A stretch of 64,000 nt of DNA from Adineta ricciae (lineage: Eukaryota > Rotifera > Eurotatoria > Adinetida > Adinetidae). Positions within the stretch are counted from its first letter, which is position 1; every line of letters starts with the position of its first letter. Under the pieces are notes generated by a model. That model searched no databases. It was not told where the DNA came from and saw nothing but the letters and a program-made list of their open reading frames with translations. Shown here piece after piece: positions 1,897-8,622 of this stretch. The DNA lies in contig CAJNOJ010000066.1 of the NCBI GenBank assembly GCA_905250025.1, positions 1 to 64,000 on the forward strand, given 5' to 3'. Both the position numbers and the translations under genes were made by a program.

Positions 1897-3645
1897 TCAA
1901 ATAAGTAAAGTAACAAATTGGGGTTGGTTATGAATGTCCTTTCGACACATTGGACACGAACGATTCTTGATCATCCATTCTTTGATACATGACGAATGAT
2001 ACTCATGCGAACACGATAGGATACTAACTTCTTGTCCACTACGGTAGGTATCGAGACAAATCGAACACTCCGATGTCGATTCTGTATCGGATGGCGACGA
2101 AGATAGGCATATCGTCACTGACGATGAAGTTTTCGCTTCAGGAAGATTATCTAGTGTTGTGGAGAATGGTAAAATGGATGGAGATTCATATGCATCTTTG
2201 ATGGAAGTACTAGATGTTGGCGACTCATTAAGGATACGTTGGATAGCTGCTGTCTAATGAAAGAAAAACATCGATTTGATTGGGAAAAAGGAGTGAAAGA
2301 TGAAAATTTACATTTGGTAATGTTTGACTGGTGCAAACACCATTCTGTACTAGTGCTTGTTGAATTTCCCAAATGAACATGGTCGGATTATTAGTTTTTA
2401 ATTTAAGAATTTCATAACGAAGCTGTGGAGTTATACGAGGACGTCGTTTGACAGTTGGAATGGAACGTTTAGATTTCGAAGGGGCAGTCGTAGGTGGTAA
2501 TGAAGACAATGGTAAATGGGACGGTGGAATCCCATTTGAAAATAGAGAATAATCGTAATTGAACAGTGTATTGATCGGTCGTATGGATGGTTGACGTTCA
2601 GTAGATTTGGTAGTTGTTGTCGGTTGTGAAATTGAAGAACCGGATAAATTGTAAGGCGGAAAGAGAGCTAGAATAGAAATATGTTCATCGTAGAGAACAG
2701 ATTTGTCAATTCACGAGAAATATTCGGATTTCGCTAATGAAGAGATTAGACGATGAGAAAACTCATTCTTTTTCTCTCAAGCCTTAGATTATTTGCTCAT
2801 TCGAACGAAATGAGAATTTCAGCTAGCAATCATCTTTTTAACCTTTCATCAGCTTAGATTCCTAAGGGATCAGTCAATAGAAGTTGTAATGTAGAATCTA
2901 TATTCATCGAAGCGAAACCATATACGAACACTCTTATCAACAGCGGGAATCACCATGTACAATCTTTATTTAAGCAAATAGTAGTTACTCTAAATCATCG
3001 TATATTTGTCAGTAAATGAATACTCTCAGAGCAAATAAACTAACTTTCTTATCTGCGAACCAATTTCAATAGATATTTACTTGATTGTGGATAATCTCGA
3101 AATGAAGCACTATGTGTACGCATTAGCGATGGACCATTATTCCATCCAAGAAAAAGTCCAGGCGGATGATAATTTGCAGGTGTGTGTTGTGGGTAATGAA
3201 ATGGATTCCACAGCAAATGATTCGATGTGGACGAAGCATAAATTGAGGTCGATGTTGGCAAGGCTGATTCAGCTGAAAGAAACACATGGTTAAACTACCG
3301 TATTACACGAAACTAATTCTTGTCATACTATGGCGTCGACAGAGACTCGAAGTTGTGTGATTAAGATTCGATGATGAATATGAATCACTAGATTTATTCA
3401 TTAGACCACCGGTTGAAGATAATGTTCCTATTGTGAACGGTGTGGGTTGATAGGCAAATGTTGCATAAGTCGGCTTTTCCCAAGGATTATGACGATGATG
3501 ATAATCATGAGTAAATGTTGAATAGGTGTTGTAATCTAAACAATAATTATTCGATGTTCATCTCACTAAAAACTAAATATTCTTTTGACTTACTCAACGA
3601 TTGAGAGAGAGGATCATTGACAGTACTATCTTTTCGTGTCATCAT
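1897..3645 (-). CDS. Paired-domain (RED half) / RING-H2 chimeric protein
   Basis: Five coding exons (3594-3645, 3329-3535, 3081-3272, 2312-2667, 1897-2253) join in frame into about 387 residues. Residues 1-220 are low-complexity, rich in Ser, Thr, Pro, His and Tyr. Residues about 224-280 match the RED (C-terminal helix-turn-helix) half of the Pax paired domain: RRPRITP, then NNPTMFIWEIQQALVQNGVC, then AAIQRIL across the last intron. The N-terminal PAI half and a homeodomain are absent. Residues about 332-372 form a RING-H2 finger with exact C-x2-C-x14-C-x-H-x2-H-x2-C-x10-C-x2-C spacing, as in E3 ubiquitin ligases that bind E2. Inference: a nuclear, DNA-binding E3 ligase. A splice acceptor lies just upstream of the chosen ATG, so a 5' UTR intron, or a missed upstream exon, is possible. 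The next gene upstream also encodes a RING-H2 finger. The individual domains are clear; that they sit in one transcript is inferred from matching intron phases. Confidence 0.75.
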
Positions 3646-5114: not shown

Positions 5115-6344
5115 TTAGTGATTTGAGAGAAAGTTATCTCGTCGACATATGGGACATGAAGAATTCATTGTAAACCATCTTGCAATACATTTCGAGTGAT
5201 ATTCATGTTGACATGGGAGTATTCGAATACGTTGATTATCTTTAAAATGAGACATACATATGACACAAGCTGTTTGTTTTGAAGATAAAAGATCAGTTTT
5301 TCGGATGGATCGGTATCGATACGAAGCGAAGTGTTCAATATCAACTGATTTGAAACGATTAGGATCGGACAGCTTCTCGGCTAGATCTAGTAATTGTTCG
5401 TAATTTTCACGTTCGCGATACGAACGTGATGGTTGATGATAGTGAAAAGAGGGAAAATTCCAACGAAATTGCTGATCATCCGACGAACATGTCGACGTCG
5501 ACTCAGTTGAAGTGTCTGAATGAGCAGGTGAAATATTTCCTGTGCGCATGATTGTTGCACTCATGGTTTGCTGTTTGCTGTCGAGAACGAAGTTTGTCGT
5601 ACGTAATGGACTAAATACATTTGATTGCGATGAAAATAATCGAACGTTGTCACTTGTAACCATAGTTTTAGTTGATTTTGGAATTGTATCTAAAATTGAA
5701 GGTAAACTTTACTAGTATACGTCAGTAGTACACGTACTTTTTGAGTCTGTAGTGAATAATGTTTCGTTTTCAAACATGTGTAAATGTTGATTAGTCAGAT
5801 ATTCGTTATGTGTATTCGAAGAAGAATATTGATTCGATAGATTTTGTTCATATTCATGTGGGGCTGATAATGATGGTAATAAAGGATTGTAGAAAGTAGG
5901 AGGTAGTTCGTTTGTCATTTGTAAATGATTCCAATCTTGTCCTGTATGATACAAAAGTACCGATCGACGTTTGATTGCTGTTGATGGAGGTTGATTTTCT
6001 AATTCAATGTGATGTTCGCATCGTGTTCGTTTGGCGTGAAAATCAGGAGACTGAATGTGAGAATCGTCTTCTAGGAAACGTTTTCGACTTGCTGTTGACG
6101 TTGGTGTCGATGATGGGAGAAGGTGATGATTGTATACTGAATGCGGATGATCGATGAAGAAATCGATTTGCTCATTAGCGATGGGAGGACAACGTCGTTT
6201 ACGTGTAGATTCTGTTGACGAAGGTAAATGATCGATTGAGTTTGAAAGAAGTCGACGACAATGTAAATCGAAATGTTGATTTAGTTCATCCATAGCTGGT
6301 GGTAACGATGAATGATTTGTTACTCGTTTCTGTTTTTCAGCCAT
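5115..6344 (-). CDS. RNF38/RNF44: RING-H2 E3 ubiquitin ligase, RNF38/RNF44-like
   Basis: Two exons (5738-6344 and 5115-5689) are separated by a 48-bp intron and encode about 393 residues. The first 290 or so are disordered and rich in Ser, His and Asn, with basic patches such as RKRRCPP that could act as nuclear localisation signals. The C-terminal part carries the block that precedes the RING in RNF38/RNF44 (YEQLLDLAEKL, then a VDIEHFASYRY segment), followed directly by a RING-H2 finger starting CVICMSHF and ending CPICRRD with canonical C3H2C3 spacing. Vertebrate RNF38/44 are 430-510 residues, so this one is somewhat short but has the complete C-terminal module. Known role of the family: nuclear/cytoplasmic E3 ligases. 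Start chosen as the first ATG of the long open exon (MAEKQKR). Confidence 0.85.
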
Positions 6345-6820: not shown

Positions 6821-8232
6821 TTATACAAATGGATATGTATCTATGAGATGTTTTTCTAATTCGATTCGTTCATCAACCAATCGTGCTAATTCATCGTAAA
6901 CGCGAAGTGTTGACTGGCGACGACCTTTTCGCCATGCGTCACTTTCGCTATTTCCATTCGAATGCTGTTGCTGATTAGAATTGTTATCCAATGGACTTAT
7001 CGGTTTACATAATGATATGGCATTTTCACTTGGACGTTTACGTTGACGAATAGAATTTGTGATTTCGAGAATTTTATCGTCAATCATACTCAAATCCAGG
7101 CGAATAGTATCCATTTTGCATTGTTTTCGTGCACGATCAAGTGCTAAACGTTCGATGCTGAGACATTCAGCAAGGCGATGTTGTAATTCTGCATATTTCG
7201 ATGAAAAAACACTAAAATATGAACAGTTTGTTAGAATAGATTGTTTATGGATGGAAACTCTTACTGATTATCTCGTCGAAGCAAATCGAAAATTGATTGA
7301 TCGATCTGCACTGAATTAGAACCATTTGACATGGTAGAGAATTTCCGTTTCATTCGATGATTGCTTGCTGTCGAACCATTTTTATATTGATTATTATTGG
7401 TCATACTCTCAACTAAACTGTACAAATGAGAATTTTGCTTAATTACAACAGAGTATTCGGTTTCAGGATGAATATATTTGTCTTTGGATAAAAGATATTC
7501 AGTTGAACTCATGGTTTCTCTGTATTGATCGAAGTCTTTGTCATAATCGAAATCGCTGAACAATGCTCGGTCCATGTTGAACACTTTGTCGATCTCATTA
7601 CAATCATTTTCTTTGAGAAATTCATGTTGATTGTCGATAACTTTCCTCCAGAACTGATCAGGATTCGAAAGTGTATTTGGCTGTAATTTGCTTCCTGTGG
7701 AATTTTGTTGATGACCATTACGATAGTTAGTCTCGTAACAGTATGGAAACGTGAAATTCATCGATCGATAAGATCTGATTGGTCGCGAAGAATTTCCATT
7801 ACTATCTGATCGCATTTTTGCATAGGAAGAATCTTTTTTCGGCGAGAAAAATCCATTTGGCTTTCGTTCGCATTTAATAGTTTTCAGAAGATATTGAGCA
7901 GACGTCTTTTTCATTCGACGTTTGCGTTTCCCGTGTCCACTAAGCGCTTTACGTCGTCGTTCGCGTTCGGCTTTGAAATCTCGAGGACTTTTACCGTTTG
8001 CTAATCGTACCATAGATGAAGATGGCAGTTTTAACATATTTCCATCTTGTTGTAGAAGTTCATTTTCACGTTGTAAAGCAGCAACAAGAGCCGATTCCAA
8101 CTCTTGTTGAATAAATGTTAAATCGTAGATGAAAATTCCTTGTTGAAATGTAAGATCAATCGTACTGATGATTTGTTGACATCGTGGACATGCTGAACCG
8201 TACTCCGCATACCGAGAAGCAGCGGTTGACAT
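6821..8232 (-). CDS. TADA3: Ada3/TADA3-like transcriptional adaptor, copy A
   Basis: Two exons (7265-8232, 6821-7211) with a 53-bp intron encode about 452 residues. The N-terminus shows the Ada3 pattern of a CPRC segment followed by an amphipathic helix (FIQQELESALVAALQREN), then a basic linker. Next comes a segment with an FWRKVIDNQHEF motif, resembling the FW-containing central block of TADA3. The C-terminus is a helical, Arg/Lys-rich region (YAELQHRLAECLSIERLALD, then QRKRPS and AWRKGRRQS) like the family's C-terminal domain. Ada3 links Gcn5/PCAF and Ada2 in the SAGA and ATAC acetyltransferase complexes in the nucleus. Length is close to human TADA3 (432). A related gene lies immediately upstream. 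Identification rests on scattered motif similarity; another coiled-coil nuclear family is possible. Confidence 0.55.
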
Positions 8233-8622
8233 TCCGCTTCTCGATTATGAACGGAATGAAGAGAAACGATTAGCAAAAATCTTAAATAGAAGAAAGAAAA
8301 CAGACTTCATATAGAGTATTTTATGTGACAGACAGATCTTCAGTCAAAACGATACATTTTGTTTTTCTTCATCGCCAAAAAAAAGGAAAATTATTGACAA
8401 AAATAGAGAAGAGTAGATAAACACATTTGGCCTTTTCTCATTTTTCAAAACATCTGAAAATAGTGATCATCGACTCAATAGGACAGCAGGGAGGATCGAA
8501 ACGAACATACAATGTAAGAAGATTGTGTTTTACCTATGGACTATACATGTATCTGTGTAACGACAAAAGAAACCGAACAAACACAAACAAGTGAAGAAAG
8601 AAAACTAACAACCGAGCTTAGC
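8233..8622. other. Short intergenic spacer between Ada3-like paralogs
   Basis: About 390 bp, AT-rich. It should contain the promoter of copy A and the 3' end of copy B. No ORF, repeat or other element stands out. Confidence 0.5.

Follow-up and report, generated by a model that had tools for sequence, protein, structure and literature searches.

The first 64 kb of contig CAJNOJ010000066.1 (here C66) from the 130-Mb genome of the bdelloid rotifer Adineta ricciae (assembly GCA_905250025.1; positions 1–64,000, hereafter the window) carries a gene that joins the RED half of a Pax paired domain, in frame, to a C-terminal RING-H2 finger. We read this as a real bdelloid gene for a nuclear RING-H2 ubiquitin ligase that is recruited by its Pax6-class RED domain, would have been born by tandem duplication of its neighbours and would act at Pax-type sites or on Pax6-containing complexes, and we put the probability of that reading at roughly 45%.

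An initial annotation of this DNA had proposed a five-exon model of 387 residues with a Pax RED motif, a RING-H2 finger about 50 residues further on and an intron that splits RED and leads straight into the RING exon. Splice reading, comparison with deposited proteins, domain searches and structural modelling bear out each of these points. Of the two outcomes that the annotation named as refuting the fusion, a RED-like segment that fails to model as a helix-turn-helix did not occur; the other, RED and RING exons in separate mRNAs, is argued against by the shared exon and by a short environmental contig, both described below.

Gene model and protein architecture

The fusion gene occupies positions 3645–1897 of the minus strand (on which all features given below with window coordinates lie) and consists of five exons, separated by four GT-AG introns, with 1,164 nt of coding sequence including the stop codon. 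The spliced product of 387 residues matches, at 100% identity from end to end, the deposited A. ricciae protein P0002, which a splice script mapped back exactly onto the window locus. Exon 1 (3594–3645) opens with the ATG at 3645–3643 and, from a GT donor, joins exon 2 in frame; exon 2 (3329–3535; GT-AG, phase 1) is of low complexity and is matched in homologues from A. vaga and Rotaria; exon 3 (3081–3272; GT-AG) carries the motif F..WNNG.SL.RT.S.S, whose positions are conserved in at least 90% of 16 proteins. All such counts out of 16 refer to alignment A2, which omits the divergent proteins P0019, P0020 and P0026. Exon 4 (2312–2667; GT-AG, ending in phase 0) encodes a linker, a basic patch and, within the Pfam PAX match, RED helices 1 and 2. 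It is followed by a 58-nt, phase-0 intron (2254–2311) that interrupts RED just where Pax6 has its own, and then by exon 5 (1897–2253), to which the gene model assigns RED helix 3, a linker, the RING-H2 finger, the C-terminal tail and the stop codon. The splice 2312/2253 connects ...QTLPN with TAAIQRIL..., the latter heading exon 5; because RED helix 3 and the RING share this one exon, the fusion does not depend on any doubtful choice of exons.

A Pfam scan of the 387 residues recovered both domains far above chance: PAX at residues 226–277 (39.9 bits, cut-off 22, E 4.6e-10; covering 72–124 of the 125 profile positions), which corresponds to the RED half, and, after a gap of 53 residues, zf-RING_2 at residues 331–373 (51.2 bits, cut-off 27.3). 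The first part of RED (residues 226–269; 2312–2443) was also matched in the genome search, while the third helix (residues 270–277; 2230–2253), encoded in the RING exon, is placed by the gene model, Pfam and AlphaFold. Separate AlphaFold2 runs on RED and RING predicted RED helices at residues 231–243, 249–258 and 270–278, with a predicted local distance difference test score (pLDDT) of about 90, and the modelled fold matched the solved RED domains of PAX6 (the top structural row) and PAX5. No PAI subdomain was found in the 387 residues (the Pfam match starts at profile position 72 and there is no second PAX stretch), nor did the Pfam scan return a homeodomain family at E up to 1. Helices 1 and 2 (WEIQQ.L.QNG.CT.QTLP) are nearly fixed across the fusion family; I273, Q274, R275 and L277 are fixed in 16/16 aligned fusion proteins, as are R226, R228 and T230 ahead of helix 1.

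The RING-H2 finger (residues 331–373; 1942–2070; model pLDDT about 95) folds like the RINGs of RNF12, Ark2C, RNF38 and RNF4. Its zinc ligands (C332, C335, C350, H352, H355, C358, C369 and C372) form a complete, canonical C3H2C3 set, and all eight are invariant in the 16 proteins, together with I334, W362, P370 and R373. In RING-type E3 ligases the Ile, Trp and Pro are E2-contact residues and the Arg is the linchpin; because the eight ligands and these four residues are kept, we predict a live E3. The only NCBIfam match to the RING was rad18, below threshold (19.5 bits against a cut-off of 175). The protein ends in a near-invariant tail, HNQPQFVTLLI (1900–1932; 9/11 positions invariant in 16), which is predicted to finish in a strand (residues 114–117 of the RING-exon model); the corresponding tails of the proteins outside the alignment are HKQPQFVTLLI (P0019), FHQPQFVTLLL (P0020) and HNQPQFVTLLI (P0026).

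Several shorter features were recognised by eye. Ahead of RED lies a conserved, bipartite basic patch, KSKR...KRRPR (2435–2476), that resembles a nuclear localisation signal and in which K217, R226 and R228 are invariant in 16 proteins; because of this patch, entry into the nucleus is predicted. A (V/I)TICLS stretch before the RING (2101–2118), with I317, C318 and L319 in 15/16 proteins, resembles a SUMO-interacting motif. A SUMO site of the form (I/V)KxE was considered in the linker, where the glutamate at residue 290 is present in 14/16 proteins, but is not claimed because the window protein reads IKDA. The N-terminus, which was modelled at low confidence, contains two conserved basophilic motifs, RRHTES (residues 84–89) and LMRTHSAS (residues 136–143), that look like kinase or 14-3-3 sites.

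Copies, homologues and selection

RED and RING occur together at four loci of the genome—the window and contigs C179, C74 and C56—and all four keep the fusion in frame. Synonymous divergence (dS), calculated by segment, is 0.06–0.22 within C66/C179 and within C74/C56 and 0.86–2.6 or saturated between the pairs; the available text of a published analysis puts the A. ricciae mean at 0.14 between homologues and at 1.27 between ohnologues (PMC5916493). Each of the two pairs appears to be allelic, and the RING neighbour common to both suggests that C74/C56 is the ohnologous locus; if so, the fusion is older than the bdelloid genome doubling. Between the window and C74, the ratio of nonsynonymous to synonymous divergence (dN/dS) is 0.27 for the N-terminus, 0.225 for RED, 0.18 for the linker (at a dS of 2.6, near saturation) and 0.054 for the RING plus tail; between the alleles in the window and C179, it is 0.14 for the linker and 0.08 for the RING plus tail. 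At the level of the coding sequence, the fusion shows purifying selection, strongest on the RING.

A profile search of the protein database returned 32 proteins, of which 27 were assigned to the family by reading: 19 with PAX and RING, three with PAX only, two with RING only and three fragments with neither. The other five matches were RING proteins without PAX, covering 11–13% of the query. Database entries for the family are named as RING-type domain-containing, hypothetical or unnamed proteins, and 13 of the 27 come with an organism name: A. ricciae, A. vaga, A. steineri, Rotaria sordida, R. socialis, R. magnacalcarata and Rotaria sp. Silwood1 and Silwood2. Judged by domain composition, the architecture is shown to be conserved in Adineta and Rotaria, other bdelloids being where the initial annotation had proposed to look for it. 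By eye, both A. ricciae copies have look-alikes among the Rotaria members. The C74-like group had support of 83/67 in a RING tree (18 fusion rows, 13 neighbour or RNF38-like rows and 13 other genomic RINGs, seven of the 20 fetched having no pattern match) and of 80/79 in a RED tree (16 fusion proteins, P0014, P0019 and P0020 being left out of 19, plus 10 Pax RED segments). Named monogonont proteins were not seen in the fusion or neighbour database searches, which had no positive control, and absence from monogononts is not claimed.

The environmental protein P0015 (329 residues, from MMT to the tail) has both PAX and RING matches and lies on a contig of just 1,085 nt. Its coding part takes up 990 nt, and the 95 nt to spare would fit at most one of the four introns (50–63 nt, their size in C74); the contig is probably derived from complementary DNA or from an intron-free genomic copy. 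Such short environmental contigs get gene calls without splicing. Other Joint Genome Institute proteins on short contigs leave more room (P0006, 278 nt; P0016, 287 nt; P0013, 716 nt; P0017, 1009 nt). The models of P0018, P0019, P0020, P0021 and P0022 stop before the RING or seem to read through the RED intron, hiding or distorting the fusion.

The RED intron and the neighbouring genes

The Pax6 gene has a phase-0 intron between NIPS and VSSINRVL, and the fusion a phase-0 intron between LPN and TAAIQRIL, at the same codon and phase in all four copies; by the gene models, the Pax6 intron and the intron inside the fusion RED agree in position and phase. Among 17 RED-bearing Pax loci, this intron occurs in Pax6 (C179, C116), in the second Pax6-class genes (C37, C11) and in the diverged C814. 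It is absent, being read through, in C17, C25 (two), C243 and the Pax genes of C74, C56 and C66; in C60, C75, C125 and C174 the splice seems to come a few codons further on, and C21 is broken. Five further loci, on C13 (two), C1 (two) and C65, have no RED at that place and were not counted. By its intron, the RED half would belong to the Pax6 class.

The second Pax6-class pair (C37, locus L018; C11, locus L020) has paired-domain and homeodomain pieces and is divided into exons near profile positions 43 and 79. C814 (L033) has RED and homeodomain pieces with no PAI match reported, and C21 (L027) resembles the C25 genes and contains in-frame stops.

Immediately upstream of the fusion lies an RNF38-like RING-H2 gene (5115–6344; read over two exons, with its start codon and upper end placed by eye), with a Pfam zf-RING_2 match of 54.1 bits and RNF38 as its best PDB match (72.1 bits). 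When the fusion RING was compared with the whole genome (150 candidates scored), the best non-self matches were the adjoining upstream RING genes of all four loci (54.4, 53.6, 53.0 and 52.0 bits), the next best of 91 RING matches reaching 44.8 bits. In the reverse search, the best non-self matches of the neighbour RING were the four fusion RINGs (56.1, 55.8, 51.7 and 51.3 bits; next 50.9). In A. vaga, neighbour and fusion have consecutive locus tags (I4U23_018947 / 018948) on contigs of the same size, 15.2 Mb; equal-sized contigs in A. steineri (192,643) and Rotaria sp. Silwood2 (44,297) suggest that the linkage extends to these species.

Downstream of the fusion on C179, about 3.4 kb away if a gap written as 100 N is counted in, the same strand holds a Pax6 gene that has PAI, RED and homeodomain. 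In the other haplotype, C116 ends within Pax6 and C66 starts on the fusion side of the corresponding stretch. A single N stands at the same place within a DDX41-like gene in C74 (L010 6848) and C56 (L012 7049); past it, C74 continues into Pax6 homeodomain exons without paired-domain exons, and C56 into other sequence. These N-flanked joins are probably assembly joins. Elsewhere in the window, another neighbour gene is represented by two long, overlapping open frames (6821–8244) with a CPRC motif, for which no Pfam family was found at E up to 0.01.

Origin and proposed function

Because the RING gene, the fusion and Pax6 follow one another in that order on one strand, we infer a tandem duplication running from inside the RING gene to inside Pax6. 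The event would have taken place between the upstream RNF38-like gene and the downstream Pax6, with breakpoints before the RING and just after RED. In the resulting protein, the basic patch would carry the molecule into the nucleus, the RING and C-terminal tail would pair as in RNF4 and recruit an E2, and the paired RED domains would dock either at a Pax-type half-site in chromatin or on a complex that contains Pax6; a RING-made dimer with two RED domains could restore DNA affinity. The ligase would then ubiquitinate whatever proteins are bound at that place, Pax6 or its partners being the likeliest, and would thereby tune Pax6 output. According to the available text of one report, PAX6 is ubiquitinated by RNF8, and TRIM11 has been reported to promote its turnover (PMC10011063); because these two act on PAX6, Pax6 or its partners would be the first candidate substrates. 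Where the initial annotation had spoken of a DNA-guided ubiquitin ligase, the single conserved fusion gene and the Pax-type RED with its predicted three-helix fold stand, but the step from these to DNA guidance goes no further than a plausible interpretation.

Several observations weigh against this account, some of them against its origin and others against its targeting. The local Pax6 scores 99 with the window RED and is outscored by six of seven Pax segments that do not belong to the Pax6 class (98–112), and the mean scores of 16 fusion REDs are 120 with C37 (a segment that is partly assumed), 113 with C11, 101 with the local Pax6 and 90–101 with other Pax genes. The RED tree puts the fusions apart from all Pax, with no resolution of their attachment; the grouping of fusion and neighbour in the RING tree has support of only 74/80. 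For the window copy, the reverse RING search gives a margin of just 0.4 bits, and the match of the neighbour to human RNF38 (72.1 bits) is far better than its match to the fusion. The adjacency of fusion and Pax6 on C179 spans a gap written as 100 N, and on C74 the fusion is separated from the Pax6 homeodomain exons by an N and a DDX41-like gene (whose best PDB match is DDX41, 260 bits). Didymodactylos carnosus, described in the available text of its source as bringing the deepest known molecular divergences of the class (PMC7943196), is in the database with RNF38-like proteins, and no fusion named from it appeared among the homologue matches; loss, a later origin or a data gap is possible. 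As to targeting, 14 of the 17 RED-bearing Pax loci begin the recognition helix with SVSS, and the fusion family has other, varying residues there (269–272); the window and C179 alleles show weak constraint on RED (dN/dS 0.40, from only seven changes; 0.55 for the N-terminus); and, in the available text of one study, isothermal titration calorimetry showed no binding to its DNA site for human PAX6 RED by itself, nor for PAI plus linker (PMC7046147).

The strongest competitor, which we give close to an even chance, holds that the fusion is real and conserved but drew its RING from another RING gene, its RED from another Pax6-class gene or both, with no tandem duplication of the neighbours. The trees do not discriminate between donors, and the RED scores favour C37 and C11 over the local Pax6: the window RED gives 118 with C37, 116 with C11, 112 with the C66 Pax gene, 109 with that of C74, 107 with C243, 104 with C17, 103 with C174, 101 with C60, 99 with the local Pax6 and 98 with C25. 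The human RINGs of ZNRF3 (51.2 bits), RLIM (50.4) and Arkadia (49.7) likewise outscore that of RNF38 (44.8) with the fusion. Yet the neighbours are the best non-self RING matches at all four loci, the reverse holding narrowly, and the RED domains of C37 and C11 are divided once more, near profile position 79, by an exon boundary found neither in the fusion nor in the local Pax6.

It is also possible, with somewhat lower odds, that RED no longer reads DNA and serves as a protein-docking helix-turn-helix, for example to Pax6 or its partners, so that protein contact alone targets the ligase. The calorimetry result for PAX6 RED fits this alternative, as does a helix 3 whose start varies while helices 1 and 2 are nearly fixed. 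It must be set against R275 and the three residues R226, R228 and T230 before helix 1, all invariant in 16, and against Eyegone-type Pax proteins, which combine a truncated PAI with an intact RED thought to bind DNA, although they also have a homeodomain (available text of PMC3082225). Returning to DNA-directed targeting, its fullest version appears unlikely: a single tandem duplication in an ancestor of the bdelloids fused Pax6 with the RING-ligase gene next to it, yielding a chromatin-directed ligase whose RING-paired double RED sits on Pax-type sites and destroys or modifies Pax6 or its partners, an antagonist beside its master gene.

Derivation of the RED-like segment from a Tc1/mariner-type transposase helix-turn-helix, rather than from Pax, is disfavoured and very improbable. 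A gene-model artefact that places the RED and RING exons in separate mRNAs is scarcely credible, given that exon 5, the RING exon, itself encodes RED helix 3, that four of four genomic copies are in frame, that P0015 has RED and RING on its 1,085-nt contig and that deposited protein models agree with the fusion.

Relation to known systems and significance

RING proteins with a DNA-binding domain of their own include MSL2, UHRF1 and RAG1, and RNF44 is grouped with RNF38; to our knowledge, RNF4 has no Pax-type helix-turn-helix. RNF38 resembles the fusion in its C-terminal RING-H2, and its bdelloid homologue is the upstream neighbour, but RNF38 has no RED and the fusion has a different tail and no NYEQLLDLAEKLSDPNRF block before the RING; the RNF38 block NYE.LL.LAE.L was not seen in the fusion sequences spanning the RING and is present in the neighbour family. 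Pax6 shares with the fusion the phase-0 RED intron after NIPS/LPN, and PAX6 supplies the top structural match to its RED, but Pax6 has PAI, RED and homeodomain where the fusion has RED and RING only. In Eyegone and Pax6(5a), according to the available text, the paired domain is reduced to, or used through, its RED half, as in the fusion (PMC3082225); both carry a homeodomain, whereas the fusion has neither homeodomain nor PAI and ends in a RING. The DNA-binding domain of MSL2 is a CXC domain (available text of PMC3447885). The DNA-binding domains of MSL2, UHRF1 and RAG1 are unrelated to that of the fusion, and none of the three is known to have a Pax part.

The initial annotation had known of no established Pax-RING protein, and none turned up in the literature searches made; within the portions of text that these covered, there was no printed description of such a protein, nor of Pax6 in bdelloids. 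RED-centred use of Pax and the pairing of a RING with a DNA-binding domain are each known, and their combination in a Pax–RING protein was not found in print in those same portions.

The Pax family of paired-domain transcription factors is usually regarded as old and stable. In this gene, the RED half of a Pax protein has been cut loose, joined to an E3-type RING and retained in Adineta and Rotaria, in a domain fusion still flanked by its two possible parents. The gene offers a natural test of whether a lone RED can aim an enzyme at DNA, a logic that engineered targeted degraders seek to imitate.
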